Positions 1,072-20,412 of a stretch of 64,000 nt of DNA are shown here, one piece after another (position 1 is the stretch's first letter; each line of letters opens with the position of its first letter). The stretch is from Sulfurimonas sp. SAG-AH-194-C20 (GTDB lineage: Bacteria; Campylobacterota; Campylobacteria; Campylobacterales; Sulfurimonadaceae). The notes beneath the pieces were generated by a model, which worked only from the letters and a program-made list of their open reading frames with translations, did not search any database and was not told the origin of the DNA. A program made the translations under genes and the position numbers. The stretch spans positions 124,001-188,000 of the forward strand of contig NZ_JAEMVD010000001.1 in assembly GCF_029215975.1 (NCBI RefSeq), given 5' to 3'.

Positions 1072-2073
1072 TTAAAAATAGTAGTGTATTGATTGTAAGT
1101 TAATAACCGTTTTATAGTCGCCTTGATCAAACTGTGTAATGTTAATATTCCAGTAATTCTCCAATGCCATGCCCACGATTATAGCAACTGCTTCTGGCAT
1201 AGAGTGTGCAATGGTTATATCTGAATACTCCAAATGCAGATTATTAATAGTGTTATAAATCTCCTGAGCATATAAGACCCAGTCCTCATTCATACCGATA
1301 GTACCATTGCCTAAACTCTTCAAGATGACCTTGTTCTCAAAGTCTTTAAAGGTGTCATGATCATAAGAGACATTATGACTAGAGAGTTGTATCACTAAAA
1401 GAAGGCTTTTGCTTTGTGGGTTAGATATGTTTTTAACAAGAGAGAACTTCTTATACTCTGTAATCTGTTCTTTATATTGTCTTGAAGATATCGTTGCAAC
1501 CCTGTCAAAGCGATCTTGAAAGTCATTATTCTGATACACAACAATCCCATCACTACGAAACATACTACCAATAGCAAAGCCGATGGCAGGTCTTTTAAGA
1601 TAAGCGATATGGAACTGTACCTTGTTGTCAAAACACCGTTCAATAGCATTGAGAGAGTAGCGAATAATTTGCAAAAAGCTAATCAGCCTTTTATTATCAT
1701 ACATACTACCGTTATACTGAAAGAGCAGATCATTTCGTGAGATATTAAAGTAGCGATTTAACTTTTTTTCGATATCCTTAAAACGCTTGTCTTTTTCGAT
1801 CTCTTTGGTAATGGAGAGATAGATAGCATTGAGTGGTTTTGGATCATCTACACTAATAACAATGGGAATAGGCAACACTTCATTGGTGTAAAACTTTCTC
1901 ATACGATACTCGTCAATAACAGACCAAGACAATAGCGCAAGTGCAATAAATAGTGTTATCCAAAAACCATACATACCAAGATAGGCATCGGAGAGAAGTC
2001 CACCAAAACCAGCTAATGCCATAGAGGCTTGAAAGAGGTGATTCTCAAAAATATTACCCAGATACTTAAACAT
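1072..2073 (-). CDS. TM-SAVED domain protein (Cap14-like architecture)
   Basis: N-terminal hydrophobic helices, then SAVED-like segments: VQFHIAYLKRPAIGFAIGS...IVVYQNN and ITIAHSMPEAVAIIVGMALENYWNINITQFDQGDYKTVINL; TAATG overlap with the upstream gene. Confidence 0.7.
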   Translation of the reverse strand: MFKYLGNIFENHLFQASMALAGFGGLLSDAYLGMYGFWITLFIALALLSWSVIDEYRMRKFYTNEVLPIPIVISVDDPKPLNAIYLSITKEIEKDKRFKDIEKKLNRYFNISRNDLLFQYNGSMYDNKRLISFLQIIRYSLNAIERCFDNKVQFHIAYLKRPAIGFAIGSMFRSDGIVVYQNNDFQDRFDRVATISSRQYKEQITEYKKFSLVKNISNPQSKSLLLVIQLSSHNVSYDHDTFKDFENKVILKSLGNGTIGMNEDWVLYAQEIYNTINNLHLEYSDITIAHSMPEAVAIIVGMALENYWNINITQFDQGDYKTVINLQSIHYYF

Positions 2074-3305
2074 TATCGACTACTTTTCTTTGTGTATTTT
2101 TCATAAATCCAACCTTTTTTATCAACATAGAGCCAGTTACCAAACTTCTTTGTTACACAGACACTATCACCTTTATGGAGTGTTGCAACACTATGTGCTT
2201 TAGACTGATGATCACTACGTATGTTTAAACCATTGCTCGTGATTTTGTAATAATTGCATGTACTTTTATCGGCAGTTTTTACTGCTTCATACTTGTGCAC
2301 CTGTGATGATTCTTTTGTTTTTATATTGGAAAAGTATTGACTTGCAAAATATATTATAATTACGACAACTAGAATTTCCACAATATGCGCAAGAATATAG
2401 AGTATCACATTTACAACAAACATAAGCACCTGACTAATTAAAAATATTACAATAAAAAGAGGTGTTAGTAACCATAATATTAATCTTGTTAAGCTCTTAA
2501 GCAGTAATATTATAGCTCGAAATAGTTTTTGAAACAGACCAAAATAGGATAAAGTAAGAAATATATTCAAAAGAATAACAAAACTGTAACTATGAGATAA
2601 CACAATTTCTGTAGTGTGACCATCCAGCTTCATCCAAAATACTGCACCTAAATTAGCGATAAGTAGCATTATTATTAAACTAATATACTCTTCTATAATG
2701 ACTAGCAAACATTTATCTTTTAGTTTTAAATGTAGTGGTAGTCTATGTTGGTCTATAAGAATCTCTTGTTTTGCTTTTAGGTTTACCACTGGTTTAGAGA
2801 GCCATTTTGTACCCTCAAGATAGGATATTACATCACGACAAGCCCGTTTAAACTTTCGAAATTCAGGTATTTTGTAGTTGTGTATGTGTAATAATTGGTT
2901 ACGTTCATGTGCAATGCGTATTAGATTATTATAGTGTCCACCTATTAACTGTGCTCTATCTCGATAATATTTATCTTTTTGAGTATTAAAGTTGTCAAAC
3001 TCATCATTAAGGTTTTCTTGGGCATCTTTATAAGCAATATAAGCATTAAGTTCATTATCAATATTTGATTCATATTCATACTGCTCTTTATAATAATAAT
3101 CTCCATCATCACGATCACGATAGAACTTATGCCCTAAAGAAGCAATAGCAGGCTTTTGAATTGGTGTCGGTCTAACAGGTTCTCTTAGCTTGTTAAATGA
3201 CTTTACTTTGTCGCTGTAACTTTCACCTACCGCACCTTTTGTATCTAAAAGTTTTTCAATGCTCTGCACGAAGTAAAGGACTTCACTAATCTGTGCTGTT
3301 GTCAT
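2073..3305 (-). CDS. membrane protein with HEPN-like RNxxxH motif, multiple TM helices and C-terminal SH3b domain
   Basis: ORF track starts at 3410, but the Met at 3305 (MTTAQISEVLYF) makes an ATGA overlap with the upstream stop; motif RNQLLH; several TM helices; C-terminal SNGLNIRSDHQSKAHSVATLHKGDSVCVTKKFGNWLYVDKKGWIYEKY is SH3b-like. Confidence 0.6.
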   Translation of the reverse strand: MTTAQISEVLYFVQSIEKLLDTKGAVGESYSDKVKSFNKLREPVRPTPIQKPAIASLGHKFYRDRDDGDYYYKEQYEYESNIDNELNAYIAYKDAQENLNDEFDNFNTQKDKYYRDRAQLIGGHYNNLIRIAHERNQLLHIHNYKIPEFRKFKRACRDVISYLEGTKWLSKPVVNLKAKQEILIDQHRLPLHLKLKDKCLLVIIEEYISLIIMLLIANLGAVFWMKLDGHTTEIVLSHSYSFVILLNIFLTLSYFGLFQKLFRAIILLLKSLTRLILWLLTPLFIVIFLISQVLMFVVNVILYILAHIVEILVVVIIIYFASQYFSNIKTKESSQVHKYEAVKTADKSTCNYYKITSNGLNIRSDHQSKAHSVATLHKGDSVCVTKKFGNWLYVDKKGWIYEKYTKKSSR

Positions 3306-3949
3306 TTGATCATGCCCATGTAGACAGAAATACTCACAATAGCTGCTACCATAATAAGTGCTGCTGTGAAACGTAGAAAACGGTACCATCGTGCTGCATA
3401 ATAGTGACATGAATGCTTATTTAAAGCACGAAGTATCTCTACATAGTTTTCATGGTAGATGCTAAACTTTGACGTACCACACTCTACACAACAGTTAGTA
3501 AAAGATCGTATCAAAGAGCCTATTTTAGGATCATAACTTTTAGTATTGTGTAAGTCTATATGAGATTCTTCTACTTTTAACATGATTACTGAATGTAAAT
3601 GTAAACGTACTTTGTAATCATCTATTATTTGTAAAACAACCCTACATTTTTCTAATGCTACTTCAAGGTCGTTAACACTTCCATTACCATGAACCGCTTT
3701 ATTTCTAATCTCTCCAACCTCTATAATCTTAGCCTCAAAACTTGGATCGAATTGTTTAAACAGAACACTCGCCTTGTCATAGATTCCTTTTCCCTCTCCA
3801 CCAAGTGACTCTAAAGATGACTCTATCTTAGTGCTCATTTGAATAAGCTGTGCTAAATCATAAAAGTGCTGACATTCTGTTTTGATATCAGGGGAAAAGA
3901 AAACGGATAAAAGTGCTCTAAAAAGTGAGGGTTTGGAAATAGTAGCCAT
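3302..3949 (-). CDS. HEPN-like domain protein with C-terminal TM helix
   Basis: IIEVGEIRNKAVHGNGSVNDLEVALEKCRVVLQII resembles HEPN/DUF4145-type helices with an R-N-x3-H motif; C-terminal TM FTAALIMVAAIVSISVYMG. Confidence 0.6.
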   Translation of the reverse strand: MATISKPSLFRALLSVFFSPDIKTECQHFYDLAQLIQMSTKIESSLESLGGEGKGIYDKASVLFKQFDPSFEAKIIEVGEIRNKAVHGNGSVNDLEVALEKCRVVLQIIDDYKVRLHLHSVIMLKVEESHIDLHNTKSYDPKIGSLIRSFTNCCVECGTSKFSIYHENYVEILRALNKHSCHYYAARWYRFLRFTAALIMVAAIVSISVYMGMIK

Positions 3950-4268: not shown

Positions 4269-5195
4269 TCATTTCGCTTTTATTTTTTTAAGATAATCTT
4301 CAAGCTCATTTATAAGCTTCTCTTTAAATCTTAACGGTTCGAGTATCTCTACATGCGGAAGCCATGCTTTGATAATGTTATCTATATCTTCATCATGGCT
4401 TATCTTAAAACTCACCCTGAGAGAAGCATCGCTATACTCCTCTAAAATATTTTGTGATTCTAAAAAATCTTTATTTTTAAAGTAGGGTGCTACTTCTTTG
4501 TAAACTTTTATGATTACCTCAAAAGAGTTTCCATCACTGTAAAATGCTGAGTGAGCATTGTCTAGAATTTTTTCTATTTCTTGAACTGTTGTCTTGTAAT
4601 ATCTTTGAGTAGAACTGATTTTCTTAATTTCTGAGAGTTTGAATGTTTTAGTTTTGTTGTCGTGCAGGTCTTTAGCAAAAAAATACCAAAAACCATCAAA
4701 GTTAACTATCTTATATGCTTCTACTTCTACTATTTTAGAATTAAGACTAAGAGATAGTATTTCTTGATTGTTAATGTACTTCTCAAGCCTCTCAATAAAA
4801 ATAGAATCTATATCTATATCTTCGATATCATCTTGTTTCACATAGTATGGGTTAAAAAAGTTTTTTGTAGAGAGTTTTTTAAAAATTCTATTTTTGATAA
4901 GGTCAATATTTTTGACATCAGTAAATTGAGAGAGTGCAATTTTTAAAAACATCATCTCATCATTATCTAAAACCGTTCTGTTAAGAGAAAAGCCCTCTTG
5001 AAACATAAACTTTCCATTTGAGTCTTTAATGATTGGAAATTCACAGAGATTATCTTTTATATCTTTTTGGATAGTCCGTACACTTACATTAAACTCTTCT
5101 GCAAATTCTTTAGTATTTAGTCTTTCATTGTAAGAGAGTTTACTTAGGATTTGAGTTAATCTTCGTAAGGTCTTGTCGTAATCTTTTTTTCCCAT
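4269..5195 (-). CDS. HTH + WYL domain transcriptional regulator
   Basis: N-terminal HTH (NTKEFAEEFNVSVRTIQKDI); WYL-type segment AYKIVNFDGFWYFFAKDLHDNKTKTFKLSEIKKI; C-terminal WCX-like region. Confidence 0.85.
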   Translation of the reverse strand: MGKKDYDKTLRRLTQILSKLSYNERLNTKEFAEEFNVSVRTIQKDIKDNLCEFPIIKDSNGKFMFQEGFSLNRTVLDNDEMMFLKIALSQFTDVKNIDLIKNRIFKKLSTKNFFNPYYVKQDDIEDIDIDSIFIERLEKYINNQEILSLSLNSKIVEVEAYKIVNFDGFWYFFAKDLHDNKTKTFKLSEIKKISSTQRYYKTTVQEIEKILDNAHSAFYSDGNSFEVIIKVYKEVAPYFKNKDFLESQNILEEYSDASLRVSFKISHDEDIDNIIKAWLPHVEILEPLRFKEKLINELEDYLKKIKAK

Positions 5196-5206
5196 AAATC
5201 AGCCTT

Positions 5207-6592
5207 TTACTTTAGATGTTGTTTGTAGTACTCATATACATCATAGATAGATATGTACTCTTTTTTAGAAGTAAGCATCTTATTCATAAGAAGGATAAAG
5301 TTTTTAAATACTTCATCTTGCATCAGCACTTTAGTCTGCACCGTTGTACGTTTATCTGTTTTATACTGCATTATTAAAAGTAGAGTGTTTTTATCGAAAA
5401 AGTCCATATTAAGAGTAAGCTTTTGAGAGAGATGTGATTGTATCTCTTCTCGAAATGCTTCCCTCTCTTTTTGTTTTATAGATTTAAAATTTTCTTTTTC
5501 ATTTAGAATGGTATTAATATTTGTGCTTTGCAATCCAAACTGTGCATCTATCTCTCTTATAAAAGTTTCTATATTGTTTTTTGGTGAACCTCGTACAAAT
5601 ATTTTCTTTGCAAAAGCACGTTTATAGCTAGGGTTAATTTTTGAGTTTGGTAAATCTGCGATATCATTGTACTTATCAAAGTCTGTAAGTATGCAGATAT
5701 TTGCATCCTCATCTAAACTTTCTCTTACTGAATCTAGTTTGTAAAGTAGGGCAGTTGTGTCTAAAATTTTCAAGTATTTACACTCTATCATATGCAGATG
5801 ATTATTTTTCATTATCAAAATATCATATTCATTTTCTATAAAGATATCATCAAGCCGTTTATCTTTTATCTTTACACCAAGGAGTATGTCATCGTAGTTG
5901 AGTTCTTTAATAAGATTAAAGACATATTGCTCATACAAAAAACCAGTTTTTATTTTCTTAAATGAAGTGTTTGGCATTTCACTATTAAAATAGAGTAATT
6001 TATCTGCTTCATACTTTTCAAAAAAAACATTTAAATCTTTTTTATATTTATCAGCTATAGTTGAACCTTCAATGCAAACAACCTCAATATCTTTGAGTAA
6101 GAAGTGATCTTTTATGGGGATAGAGGTATTCATCTTATATGTTTTCATACTCTCTTTTGTTAAAATATTATACTCATTATCATATCTATCATAAGTAAGT
6201 ATTTTAGTATTCTGGGCTAGAAATTCATTTGAAAATAAGATGCCAATATTTGCTAGCCCATCACTAACATTTATATGTAAATCCCCATAGTCATCGGTAT
6301 ATGTTTTTAGAATATCAATCACTTGATGTATGGCTTTTAGGCTATCTTCATCTAGTTTAATGGAAAATGTTTTAATCTCTAAGTCATACTTTTTTATAAA
6401 TGCTGTTGTGCCATTAATGATTTTTTTTGCACTGATGAGGTCGTTTTTAAAGTCATCATAAATAATGATATGTTTTGTGATTTTATCTTTGTATTCATAA
6501 AAAATGGGAAGGATTGATGAGTAGAAATCACCAACTATTGAAACTAAAATCATTTTATTAACCTTGACTTGAAGTATTTTTTGTACGTCCAA
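5207..6592 (-). CDS. CARF + PD-(D/E)xK nuclease, Card1/Can2-like (DUF1887 family)
   Basis: N-terminal CARF-like Rossmann (MILVSIVGDFYSSILPIFYEY...LHINVSDGLANIGILFSNEF); nuclease core NEYDILIMKNNHLHMIECKYLK; probable true start is M14 at 6553, with AAGG 8 nt upstream. Confidence 0.75.
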   Translation of the reverse strand: MDVQKILQVKVNKMILVSIVGDFYSSILPIFYEYKDKITKHIIIYDDFKNDLISAKKIINGTTAFIKKYDLEIKTFSIKLDEDSLKAIHQVIDILKTYTDDYGDLHINVSDGLANIGILFSNEFLAQNTKILTYDRYDNEYNILTKESMKTYKMNTSIPIKDHFLLKDIEVVCIEGSTIADKYKKDLNVFFEKYEADKLLYFNSEMPNTSFKKIKTGFLYEQYVFNLIKELNYDDILLGVKIKDKRLDDIFIENEYDILIMKNNHLHMIECKYLKILDTTALLYKLDSVRESLDEDANICILTDFDKYNDIADLPNSKINPSYKRAFAKKIFVRGSPKNNIETFIREIDAQFGLQSTNINTILNEKENFKSIKQKEREAFREEIQSHLSQKLTLNMDFFDKNTLLLIMQYKTDKRTTVQTKVLMQDEVFKNFILLMNKMLTSKKEYISIYDVYEYYKQHLK

Positions 6593-8739: not shown

Positions 8740-8768
8740 TTGACAACAAATAAGTTGTCAGATATAAT
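8740..8768 (+). promoter_or_regulatory. consensus sigma70-type promoter TTGACA-N17-TATAAT
   Basis: TTGACA 8740-8745, 17 bp spacer, TATAAT 8763-8768, directly upstream of the 8801 CDS. Confidence 0.8.
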
Positions 8769-8800: not shown

Positions 8801-9967
8801 ATGAAAAATTGTGTTGGACAAGTTGTACGTGGAAGTGATTTTTGGAATAGAACAACTGAACTTGAAACTATTTGGGATGCTATAGATTCTGGAAGTCATA
8901 TTCTCTTAGTCGCTCCAAGAAGAGTTGGGAAAACTTCTATTATGCATAAGATTAAAGATGAGCCTAAAGATGGTCACATCGTTATCTATATTGATACAGA
9001 ATCAGCAGATACTGAGAATGAGTTTTGGCATAAACTTTTTAATACAATGATGGAAGAAGAGTTCGTAAATAAGCTAATGTCTAAGTCAAAAGTTCTATAT
9101 GAAAAATTGACAAACATTAAAATAATAAAGGTTTCTGTATCCGGTGTAGAGTTTGGGGATGGTGAGACTCTTGATTATTCTATTGCATTTGAGAGCTTAG
9201 TAAGAGATTTAGAAATAGATAAAAAACTTATTATTATGATAGATGAATTTGCCCAGACTATTGAAAATATTATAAAATATGAAGATGTGAAAAATGCAAA
9301 CTCACTTTTAAAAGCTCATCGTGCATTGAGACAAAATCCAAAAGTATCAGAGAAAGTGACTTTTATCTATGCGGGTTCTATAGGTTTAGAGAGTGTTGTA
9401 TCTAAAATAAGTGCTATTAAAATCATCAATGATTTAAATAGTATAAAAGTACTTCCATTATCTAAATCCGAAGCTTTTAAGTTTGTTAGTGCATTATGTT
9501 CTAGTGTAAAAATAATTTTAGAAGAAAATGTAATTCACTATCTTTTAGAAAAAATAGAATGGTTAATACCTTTTTATATTCAATTACTAATTCAAGAGTT
9601 AAAAACACTCTCACGAATAGATATAAGTTGCCCACTTGACAGTACAATGGTAGATGAAGCTATGGATAAGGCTTTAGAACACAGAAATTATTTCGAGTCT
9701 TGGCAAACTAAACTAAGAGAATCATTTTCAAAAGAGGAGTATCTTTTTGCTAAAGATGTTTTAAATATTATGTCCCAAGAGAGCACAATGCAATCATCTC
9801 AAATAATTAATATTGGGGCTAAACACTCTCTTGATGAAGATGAAGCAAAAGATATGATTCGTACTCTTGTTTACGATGGTTATATTAATAACAATGAGGA
9901 CAATAAAGTCTATAGATACAACTCTCCAATACTAAGACAATGGTGGAATAAAAATGTTGCAAACTAG
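8801..9967 (+). CDS. AAA/STAND-like ATPase with C-terminal winged helix
   Basis: Walker A APRRVGKTS; Walker B LIIMIDEF; C-terminal wHTH-like region ending YRYNSPILRQWWNKN. Confidence 0.8.
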   Translation: MKNCVGQVVRGSDFWNRTTELETIWDAIDSGSHILLVAPRRVGKTSIMHKIKDEPKDGHIVIYIDTESADTENEFWHKLFNTMMEEEFVNKLMSKSKVLYEKLTNIKIIKVSVSGVEFGDGETLDYSIAFESLVRDLEIDKKLIIMIDEFAQTIENIIKYEDVKNANSLLKAHRALRQNPKVSEKVTFIYAGSIGLESVVSKISAIKIINDLNSIKVLPLSKSEAFKFVSALCSSVKIILEENVIHYLLEKIEWLIPFYIQLLIQELKTLSRIDISCPLDSTMVDEAMDKALEHRNYFESWQTKLRESFSKEEYLFAKDVLNIMSQESTMQSSQIINIGAKHSLDEDEAKDMIRTLVYDGYINNNEDNKVYRYNSPILRQWWNKNVAN

Positions 9968-11972
9968 TTATAGTAGGTATAAATATACTCCTGATGAAAT
10001 GAGTGAGGATGAATTTTTAAACAGGTTTGTAGTTCGTGCAGATATATTTCAAGATATATTTCAAGATATAAAATCATCTGATGATACTAATACAAATCAG
10101 CACTATATACTCATAGGTCAACGCGGTCAAGGTAAAACAACTCTTCTGAGAAAACTGCATATAGAAGTGAAAAATGATAAAAAGTTATCAAAGTTTTTAC
10201 TTCCTATAAAGTTTGCAGAAGAGCAGTATCAGATCCGTTCTTTATGTAGACTTTGGGAAGAAGTGGCTGAGTACCTACAAACATTTTATGAGGATGAGTT
10301 TGCTACTGTACTTGATGATATGGAGAAGCATTTTGAAGATGAAGACTATTATTTAAAATGTTTTTCTTATTTAGAGTCTGTTGTAAAAACTAAAGGGAAA
10401 AAGCTTCTTTTACTCATAGATAATATTGATGAACTTATAGGCAAACTGAGTGAAAAAGAGCAGAGACAACTTAGAGAGATACTCATAAGTTCTAATATAT
10501 TTCGTATAGTTGGTGGCTCAACTAAGATGCTTGAACATCAGCATGACTACTCAAAAGCATTTTACGAGTACTTTAAAATCATAAAGCTGAAAAGTCTCAA
10601 TGCTAAGGAGAGTAGAGAGTTTCTTCTGAGTATCGCAAAAGAGGAACAAAAAGAGCAAATACAAAGTGTCATAAAAAATTCTCCAGCTAGAATAGAAACA
10701 CTCAGACGCATAACGGGAGGAGTCCCTAGAACATTAGTGATGCTTTTTGATATATTTCTCGATGAAGAGGGTAGTGCTTTTGATGATTTACTAAAAATTC
10801 TTGATGAGGCTACACCTCTTTATAAGCACCGAATGGATGACTTGCCCCCAGCACTTCAAGAGATAGTACATACCATCGCTATAAACTGGGATGGTATGCT
10901 AACAGGTGAGATAGCAAAAAAACTGAGAATGGAGAGTAAGTTAGTTTCCGCACAACTGAAAAAACTTGAAAAGTATGAGATAGTTGAGTCTGAGTCTATC
11001 GGTAAAAATAAAATATATAAGATAAAAGAGAGATTTTTTAACATCTGGTATCTTATGCGTTTTGGAAGAAAAAAAGATAGACAGAGAGTTGAGTGGCTTG
11101 TTAAGTTCTTGGAGTCTTGGTGTACTAAAGAAGAATTAGAAGAAAGGGATGCTAAATTTATTGATAGAGTTAAAAAAGGTGAGCTTAGTTCTTCTTTTGC
11201 TTATACTATGGCTGAAACTTATTGCTATCTAGATATTGATACAGCAATTGGGGCAAATGTTAAATCAGAAGTAGCAAAATTATTGAATACTAATTCTTCT
11301 AATTTAGGTAACCACCTCTCCTTGTCAAACGAAGAATTAATAAATAAAGCAATTCTATTGCAAAAGTCTGGGGCAATAGATATCGCACTAACTACATTAC
11401 TTAAATCTAATAAAAGGACGAAAGAAATTCTCTTGTTTATTGGATTACTTTTTGCACAAAAAGGGGAGTTTTTAAAGGCTGAAAAACCTTTATTGCAAGC
11501 TATAAAGAAAAAGTCTCATAGAGCAGTATATTATTTAGCGAAGATATATTTTATACAGAATATAAATTTGAGTATGTCTTTGATAATGATAGATGAAGCA
11601 TACAAAAAATCAAGAAACGCTAATAATACACTATTATTTTCTCTATTACTATTGTGGAATGAAGATTTTACACAAAGTTATGATGAGTATGCTGAATATC
11701 TTATTTATCCTGGTGCTGCAGGAACAAAAGATAATAATACCATTTATTTCACTCTCTTAATCTCAAAAGGACAACACTACCAAGCTAAAAAGTTCCTAGA
11801 GATGAAAGAGTATCAATTAAAAGAAAGATACAAACCAATTTGGTATGCTCTTATGACTCTTATGCAAGATGAGTTTCCTCATGAGATTAAAAAGATGGGA
11901 AGTGAACTTCAAGAGAGTGTCGATGAAGTTCTCAAAGAGATAGAGGTTTATAAAGAAAAGTATGCAATTTAA
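9954..11972 (+). CDS. AAA/STAND-like ATPase with winged helix and TPR-like C-terminal region
   Basis: Walker A GQRGQGKTT; Walker B LLLLIDNIDEL; wHTH GEIAKKLRMESKLVSAQLKKLEKYEIVE; helical repeats after ~residue 460; 14 nt overlap with the preceding gene. Confidence 0.8.
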   Translation: MLQTSYSRYKYTPDEMSEDEFLNRFVVRADIFQDIFQDIKSSDDTNTNQHYILIGQRGQGKTTLLRKLHIEVKNDKKLSKFLLPIKFAEEQYQIRSLCRLWEEVAEYLQTFYEDEFATVLDDMEKHFEDEDYYLKCFSYLESVVKTKGKKLLLLIDNIDELIGKLSEKEQRQLREILISSNIFRIVGGSTKMLEHQHDYSKAFYEYFKIIKLKSLNAKESREFLLSIAKEEQKEQIQSVIKNSPARIETLRRITGGVPRTLVMLFDIFLDEEGSAFDDLLKILDEATPLYKHRMDDLPPALQEIVHTIAINWDGMLTGEIAKKLRMESKLVSAQLKKLEKYEIVESESIGKNKIYKIKERFFNIWYLMRFGRKKDRQRVEWLVKFLESWCTKEELEERDAKFIDRVKKGELSSSFAYTMAETYCYLDIDTAIGANVKSEVAKLLNTNSSNLGNHLSLSNEELINKAILLQKSGAIDIALTTLLKSNKRTKEILLFIGLLFAQKGEFLKAEKPLLQAIKKKSHRAVYYLAKIYFIQNINLSMSLIMIDEAYKKSRNANNTLLFSLLLLWNEDFTQSYDEYAEYLIYPGAAGTKDNNTIYFTLLISKGQHYQAKKFLEMKEYQLKERYKPIWYALMTLMQDEFPHEIKKMGSELQESVDEVLKEIEVYKEKYAI

Positions 11973-19624: not shown

Positions 19625-20056
19625 ATGCTCAGTGATGCAAACTTTATAAACATAGCGACAGAAATAGCAAGTGCTTCAAAGTGTGTCTCTAAGCAAGTAG
19701 GTGCGGTTATCGTTAAAGATGGACGAATACTTAGTACAGGTTATAACGGTACACCAGCAGGTTTTACAAACTGTCGTGAGCATTGGGACAACAAGTACAC
19801 TCCTGAGCATCATGAGTGGAGTAAAACTTATGAGATTCATGCAGAGATGAACGCAATCATCTGGGCAGCTCGTGAGGGGATAAGTATAGAGGGTGCAACT
19901 ATTTATGTAACACTTGAACCTTGTAGTGAATGCTCTAAAAATGTCATAGCTAGTGGGATAAAACGTATAGTCTATGCAAAAGAGTATGAGCATACTCACT
20001 CCGAAGTAATTTCCAAATTTATCGAAGATAATGGTGTGGTTATAGAAAAACTTTAA
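19625..20056 (+). CDS. deoxycytidylate deaminase (ComEB-like)
   Basis: HAEMNAIIWAAREG...TLEPCSECSKNVIASGI zinc-deaminase motifs. Confidence 0.9.
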   Translation: MLSDANFINIATEIASASKCVSKQVGAVIVKDGRILSTGYNGTPAGFTNCREHWDNKYTPEHHEWSKTYEIHAEMNAIIWAAREGISIEGATIYVTLEPCSECSKNVIASGIKRIVYAKEYEHTHSEVISKFIEDNGVVIEKL

Positions 20057-20412
20057 ACACCATCTTTTAAAAAGTCAGTTATTGCAGACTCGGGACGACC
20101 AATAATCGCATTATCTCCTCTGATAAGTACAGGACGTTGTATAAGTTTAGGATTTTGAATCATCGCTTCGATGAGAGCATCTTCATCTGTAACATTTTTA
20201 AGGTCAAGTTCTTTATATATAGCTTCTGTTGTCCTCATCCATTCTCTGGCACTCTTAAAACCTAACATTTTGAGCATATTTTTCATAGTATGAGTGGTGA
20301 GAGTTTTATCCAAATACTTAACTACCTCATTTACTTGTCCACTTTCTTCTACAAGATTTACTGCCTCTCGTGATTTTGAACATCGTGGATTATGCCAGAT
20401 TGTTGTTTTCAT
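20053..20412 (-). CDS. arsenate reductase (ArsC)-family protein
   Basis: IWHNPRCSKSREAVNLVEE...QRPVLIRGDNAIIGRPESAI. Confidence 0.88.
   Translation of the reverse strand: MKTTIWHNPRCSKSREAVNLVEESGQVNEVVKYLDKTLTTHTMKNMLKMLGFKSAREWMRTTEAIYKELDLKNVTDEDALIEAMIQNPKLIQRPVLIRGDNAIIGRPESAITDFLKDGV

Follow-up and report, generated by a model that had tools for sequence, protein, structure and literature searches.

The window analysed here comprises 64 kb (positions 124001–188000) of a 189-kb contig, C1, from a 1.63-Mb assembly of 90 contigs that is 66% complete. It contains a gene for a nuclease of the CARF–PD-(D/E)xK type, and a gene for a transcriptional regulator with HTH, WYL and WCX domains follows the nuclease stop codon at a distance of 11 bp, as had been claimed in the earlier sequence-only reading of this DNA. 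A second group of genes on the same strand, separated from the nuclease–WYL pair by a gap of 320 bp and possibly a separate module, encodes a predicted SAVED-TM sensor and two HEPN-like membrane proteins. The features, in window coordinates, are as follows.

1072..2073, minus strand: predicted SAVED-TM nucleotide sensor (PADLOC 'CARF, 4 TMs' / SAVED4_TM)
2073..3410, minus strand: membrane protein with a HEPN-like RNQLLH motif and a C-terminal SH3_3 domain (profile match; homologue in locus L071)
3302..3949, minus strand: HEPN-like protein with an RNKAVH motif, 215 aa, with a C-terminal membrane helix (RiboL-PSP HEPN match below threshold, E 0.013; homologue beside SAVED-TM in L071)
4269..5195, minus strand: HTH-WYL-WCX transcriptional regulator, 308 aa (HTH_11, WYL and WCX all above Pfam cut-offs)
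5207..6592, minus strand: CARF–PD-(D/E)xK nuclease gene, intact open reading frame, 461 aa from TTG
5210..5536, minus strand: all-helical C-terminal extension of the nuclease, residues 353–461 (~105 aa; alignment and secondary structure of the model)
5537..5980, minus strand: PD-(D/E)xK nuclease domain, approximately residues 205–352 (profile match and alignment)
5777–5833, minus strand: predicted catalytic residues N254-E255-x-D257 ... E270-C-K272 (alignment)
6053..6553, minus strand: CARF (Rossmann-like) ligand-sensing domain, residues 14–180 (model, fold search, PADLOC CARF4)
6251..6271, minus strand: CARF strand-4 loop N108-V-S-D111-G-L-A114 (alignment; Can2 residues from PMC7969007)

Homologues of the nuclease all start at the internal M14 of the window protein, and therefore the true start is probably the ATG at 6553, which has the letters AAGGT just upstream and would yield a protein of 448 aa. 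Both the CARF-like N-terminus and the NEYDILI...IECKY nuclease core that had been noticed from the letters alone are real. The protein matches the PADLOC profile CARF4--CARF_PDDEXK with E 1.4e-70 and the Pfam family Card1_endonuc with 49.7 bits, compared to a cut-off of 26.4. An AlphaFold model built from 31 family members has a pLDDT of 89.8 and a pTM of 0.85, and a fold search with this model returned VC1899 (1xmx) at the top (E 1.2e-16), together with Card1 (6.9e-15) and Can2 (1.8e-14), so that the CARF fold, which structure prediction might have rejected, was upheld. E221, D257, E270 and K272 are invariant across the 85 sequences of the alignment, 84 of which also have E255. The window protein shares its domain order (CARF, then PD-(D/E)xK), catalytic motif and fold (matches at E 1e-13 to 1e-15) with Can2 and Card1 (DUF1887 / PF09002), and differs from them in a short interdomain linker, in an extra helical C-terminal domain and in the ligand site discussed below. 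The C-terminal extension, which like the SAVED-TM gene and the two HEPN-like membrane genes had been missed at first reading, matched no Pfam family; it is confined to the subclade of the window protein (L087, L088, L090, L092) and absent from most family members.

A scan of genome contigs produced 79 nuclease loci, about half of them from Campylobacterota, and several of the nearest relatives are annotated as Sulfurimonas. The window protein is a member of a Campylobacterota-specific clade of the Card1/Can2 family. Within it, the protein falls in a seven-row clade with SH-aLRT 99, whose members share the shortened interdomain linker and, wherever the C-terminus is covered and with the exception of L091, the helical C-terminal domain. 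With respect to a possible phage origin, no relative of the nuclease was found in IMG/VR (by pattern scan) or in phage records.

The pairing with a WYL gene is recurrent. Of 51 family loci, 10 have a WYL gene within 3 kb of the nuclease, compared with none in 350 kb of farther flanks. An HTH-WYL architecture beside a defence effector likewise characterizes the regulators BrxR and CapW (PMC9122601, PMC9122588). In the window, the regulator probably acts on the nuclease–WYL pair by repressing it or gating its expression. Promoter matches upstream of the pair are at chance level.

The sequence-only reading had stated that the 64 kb contain neither a repeat array nor a cas gene, and this extends to the whole 189-kb contig: there is no CRISPR array in the window or in the rest of the contig, and a search for a type III locus just outside the window found none on the contig. 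In the 1.365 Mb scanned (~84% of the 66%-complete assembly) no CRISPR arrays or cas homologues were detected, and neither cas1 nor RAMP proteins had a match in the window genome (66%-complete assembly). The Cas10 palm profile cross-matches GGDEF cyclases, and Cas10 was counted only at about E 1e-16 or better; the matches in the window genome are all of GGDEF grade, and Cas10-grade matches number zero in this genome (G000) as well as in G008, G057, G114, G282 and G055. A repeat at L258 was considered as a CRISPR array and rejected, its pattern being that of an uninterrupted purine-rich tandem repeat. Since a third of the genome may be absent from the assembly, the evidence against type III CRISPR in the window genome is strong without being conclusive. 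Other known signalling systems were equally without a candidate synthase. The SMODS/CD-NTase synthase of CBASS (PF18144) has no match in the window genome as assembled, the mCpol polymerase of Panoptes-like systems (PF18182) has only a match below cut-off, and searches with both profiles over 21 genomes gave nothing above cut-off.

A lysine or arginine after strand 4 is a hallmark of the CARF ligand site, and distinct ligands have been suggested where it is missing (Makarova et al. 2014, PMC4012209). In Can2, the residues Ser19, Thr42, Lys99 and Tyr118 contact cA4, and VC1899, which is without those residues, is not regulated by cA4 (Zhu et al. 2021, PMC7969007). In our alignment Lys99 of Can2 corresponds to A114 and Tyr118 to T133 of the window protein, and the NxTGGTK loop of Can2 and Card1 reads NVSDGLA, with alanine replacing the lysine that contacts the cA4 phosphate and aspartate replacing glycine. 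The replacement is general in Campylobacterota, where K or R occupies the Lys99 position in none of 48 sequences, compared with 34 of 37 from other phyla, and tyrosine occupies the Tyr118 position in 1 of 48 compared with 29 of 37. D111, by contrast, is present in 42 of the 48 and in none of the 37, and Y134 (47/48) and N139 (48/48) are newly conserved along with it in Campylobacterota; the catalytic residues are kept in both sets. Outside Campylobacterota (L124–L165) type III linkage accompanies a loop lysine in 14 of 17 cases and a loop arginine in 0 of 10 (p 3e-5). The VC1899-type proteins keep such an arginine (NASCGLR) without cas linkage, whereas the cas-unlinked window protein has none. 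Campylobacterota members inside type III loci are also without the strand-4 K/R. On these alignments the pocket change is a property of the Campylobacterota clade and not a scar of CRISPR loss, because type III-linked members share the loop; for the same reason we rejected the notion that the window nuclease is an orphan because its pocket was lost.

The original interpretation of the locus therefore stands in its Card1/Can2 fold, its orphan status and its WYL pairing, but not in the implied cA4 ligand, given the replaced Lys99 and Tyr118 equivalents, the lack of K/R throughout the clade, and fusions and neighbours that point to SAM-AMP. Type III signals are cyclic oligoadenylates or, in one branch, SAM-AMP, for which CorA is the sole effector demonstrated in the literature searched. 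According to Chi et al. 2023 (PMC10600005), NrN degrades SAM-AMP in vitro and none of cA2, cA3, cA4, cA6 and pApA; Aliarcobacter butzleri has an nrn–corA gene fusion; and CorA cannot function without a pair of aspartates at the putative SAM-AMP site. Of 51 Campylobacterota loci, 13 have NrN or CorA within 6 kb of the nuclease, compared with 0 of 38 others (p 4e-4). When only loci that have type III genes within reach are counted, the figures are 6 of 8 and 0 of 16. The p-values of such associations are inflated by genome relatedness, and the searched flanks differ in length among loci. Four members of the family (L065, L067, L117 and L119, 592–615 aa) are fusions of the CARF nuclease with NrN, of which we found no description in the literature searched. 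All four retain an intact DHH motif; residues 357–593 of L117 match the solved NrN with E 1.4e-50, and its fused NrN domain matches PADLOC DHH_CorA with 5e-78. The nuclease gene of the Arcobacter plasmid CP134857 has in its vicinity a gene fusion of NrN and CorA, a WYL gene and type III-B genes. Closer to the window protein, L087 (genome G411, 59% identical) combines WYL, NrN, CorA and nuclease genes; its NrN matches the solved NrN with E 3e-47, and its CorA is without the channel/membrane part (profile positions 38–317 of 446). In G322, the source of L089 (66% identical), an extension-bearing nuclease fragment is followed, 15 bp further on, by a 719-aa frame that begins with NrN. In both G411 and G322, NrN-CorA adjoins the CARF nuclease without type III.

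On the principle that an enzyme destroying a signal is joined to the effector which senses it, SAM-AMP or an analogue is the most likely ligand, and the branch probably responds to an alarm molecule other than that of textbook Card1/Can2. For the window protein itself the ligand is argued from relatives, because no NrN was found in the whole assembly (66% complete) and no CorA relative in the ~84% of it that was scanned. As a speculation, the loop Asp could suit the positive charges of SAM. The known effector of the CorA/NrN branch of type III-B is a membrane protein, whereas the window protein is a predicted nuclease, and the literature searched, whose coverage is incomplete, yielded no SAM-AMP effector that is a nuclease. 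Several observations speak against the SAM-AMP reading: the window genome yielded no NrN, no CorA and no detectable Cas10 (the SAM-AMP synthase), L093 is type III-linked but without CorA, the NrN fusions mostly carry the CARF loop NATG[SA]D, unlike NVSDG in the window protein, and L062 shares the NxTDGL loop with the window but resides in a type III-A locus without NrN or CorA. The latter locus (9450–13279 of L062) also holds a CARF-RelE-like protein, which suggests use of cA4 there because this second CARF protein has the canonical loop NLTGGFK.

Our best explanation, to which we give somewhat less than an even chance, is that the window encodes a CARF nuclease under WYL control that lives as an orphan and belongs to a Campylobacterota lineage of the Card1/Can2 family, a lineage which has switched from cyclic oligoadenylate to the SAM-AMP branch of type III signalling. 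It belongs to a known fold family but lacks the cA4 site that defines Can2 and Card1, and judged by sequence it is probably a WYL-paired CARF nuclease outside CRISPR in the SAM-AMP branch. The nuclease would act as a homodimer, with an adenylated signal, SAM-AMP or a close analogue, binding between the two CARF domains; binding would close the PD-(D/E)xK domains on DNA or RNA, the resulting nicks or RNA cuts could arrest the infected cell, and the WYL protein would repress or gate the pair. A bolder version, which we consider rather unlikely, holds that the CARF nucleases of Campylobacterota represent the first soluble SAM-AMP nuclease effectors, some of them self-limited by a fused NrN, and that in type III-free genomes (that of the window, G055, G411) they serve a CRISPR-independent alarm based on SAM-AMP or an analogue made by a synthase other than Cas10. 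NrN-CorA genes occur in the RAMP-free genomes G055 (L065; 99% complete), G314 (L112), G411 (L087) and G322 (contig C115), which apparently possess SAM-AMP effector modules without type III CRISPR. The existence of fusions between an altered-pocket CARF nuclease and the enzyme that degrades SAM-AMP suggests a retuning of CARF domains to this molecule, and an ability of SAM-AMP to provoke cleavage of nucleic acids besides membrane damage. A clade that is conserved, mobile and regulated without CRISPR also challenges the view of orphan CARF nucleases as discarded leftovers, and raises the question of other makers of SAM-AMP-type signals.

Alternatively, the window protein could be an ordinary cA4-activated Card1/Can2 effector that serves, in trans, a type III system in the unassembled third of the genome. 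This is an unlikely scenario, although the most credible of the competing ones. The incompleteness and fragmentation of the assembly leave room for it, the nuclease–WYL pair also stands beside cas genes in L093, L062 and L049, and CARF nucleases are associated with RAMPs both in the order (13 of 28 genomes with the nuclease compared with 62 of 271, p 0.011) and in the genus (6 of 17 compared with 13 of 118, p 0.016). In the latter survey of 135 Sulfurimonas-genus genomes, 17 carried the nuclease, 19 carried RAMPs and 6 carried both. Against it, the cA4-binding Lys and Tyr are lost, and genomes 99–100% complete contain the nuclease without RAMP in the genus (G114, G282, G437) and the order (G008, G057); of these, G008, G057, G114 and G282 are also without a Cas10-grade match. 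All members of the seven-row clade come from RAMP-free genomes, and with an eighth subclade member, a fragment from the RAMP-positive genome G407 that was assigned to the subclade by its extension, 7 of 8 subclade genomes are without RAMP (p 0.027). An earlier formulation, that the extension subclade is wholly type III-free (p 0.005), was dropped after the genus search added G407. The orphan status claimed for the window nuclease is a recurrent one. A second type III-free set on the tree (L104/L044 and L106/L045/L046) suggests more than one origin of this status; type III status on the nuclease tree needs eight changes of state.

The nuclease could also be an effector of a CRISPR-free nucleotide signalling system shared with the SAVED-TM and HEPN-like proteins, where one signal drives a membrane arm and a nuclease arm. 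In the window the SAVED-TM gene ends 2.2 kb from the WYL stop, with the two HEPN-like genes between, and it directly adjoins the nuclease in G057 (L046), Arcobacter vandammei (L106) and a Sulfurovum MAG (L103); these three genomes and that of the window are all RAMP-free. Proteins with a HEPN motif are found together with SAVED-TM in the window and in L071, L046 and L106. We nevertheless regard this possibility as quite improbable: no candidate synthase was found (no SMODS and no mCpol above cut-off), none lies near the window trio, the nearest relatives L087–L092 are without SAVED-TM, and the 320-bp gap divides the two gene groups in the window.

A still less probable scenario is that the enzyme has lost its tie to CRISPR, as has been suggested for VC1899 of Vibrio cholerae, and is now degenerate, with no defence role left. 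The window protein is, like VC1899, its top structural match, an orphan DUF1887 CARF nuclease outside CRISPR with an altered cA4 site, VC1899 is not regulated by cA4 (PMC7969007), and the CorA of L087 has lost its channel part. Unlike VC1899, however, the window protein is part of a clade linked with WYL, NrN and CorA. Degeneration is difficult to reconcile with the many genomes in which the frame is intact, the preserved catalytic residues, the strong conservation of the new pocket at D111, Y134 and N139, and the recurrent WYL pairing. For the L087/L088 nuclease pair dN is 0.15 compared to dS of 1.69, and therefore the nuclease is under purifying selection; dS is saturated in most comparisons with the window nuclease itself. 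Repeated relocation is likewise evident. In L088 a lone nuclease gene (2294–3655) sits between deoxycytidylate-deaminase-like and ArsC-like genes, which directly abut in the window (19625–20056 and 20053–20412) as an empty site, while L089 has its nuclease at another site, where the neighbours are MutY-like and ABC-transporter genes. Related genomes therefore carry the nuclease at different sites, and it has moved independently. A cassette of WYL, beta-barrel, small-gene and nuclease occurs both on the chromosome of G008, a genome without RAMP, and on plasmid CP134857, where a type III-B system adjoins it.

Least likely of all is an autonomous single-gene defence whose CARF domain senses an ordinary cell or phage nucleotide or a damaged nucleic-acid end, which would fit the single-gene insertions between housekeeping genes in L088 and, within the reach of its contig, L089, and the distinct ligands proposed for CARF families without K/R (PMC4012209), but leaves the NrN fusions and CorA linkage of the clade unexplained.

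Several further gene groups were observed at these loci. In Sulfurimonas STE_9, a RAMP-free genome, the nuclease forms a tight operon with PP2C/NERD-like and Ser/Thr-kinase-like proteins (L042 88–4770 / L104), and in G057 the stop of a second CARF nuclease gene overlaps the gene of a CHASE2-like membrane protein (L044 8166–10512), both as read from the sequence. The trio of SAVED-TM and two HEPN-motif membrane proteins also occurs in L071 (G195), with VWA-like and multi-TM proteins upstream. A conserved operon at L106 (5114–11086), L046 (9555–15525) and L072 (400–5183) contains genes for a HEPN-motif protein, a protein of ~200–250 aa, MotA-like and MotB/ZorB-like proteins and SAVED-TM, and includes the CARF nuclease in two of the three. 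From its gene content it looks like an undescribed defence system with a Zorya-like motor and a SAVED sensor. To the left of the window, at 114949–120049 of contig C1 (L004 10949–16049), lies a CHAT operon (a 1070-aa CHAT protein, a 241-aa protein and a CHASE2-like protein) followed by genes of 443 and 502 aa, and this operon and the nuclease locus probably belong to one defence island. Within the window, two consecutive ATPase genes at 8801–11972, one AAA and one NACHT/STAND-like with an HTH, are possibly another defence pair, and a perfect sigma-70 promoter (12/12) is present at 8740–8768.
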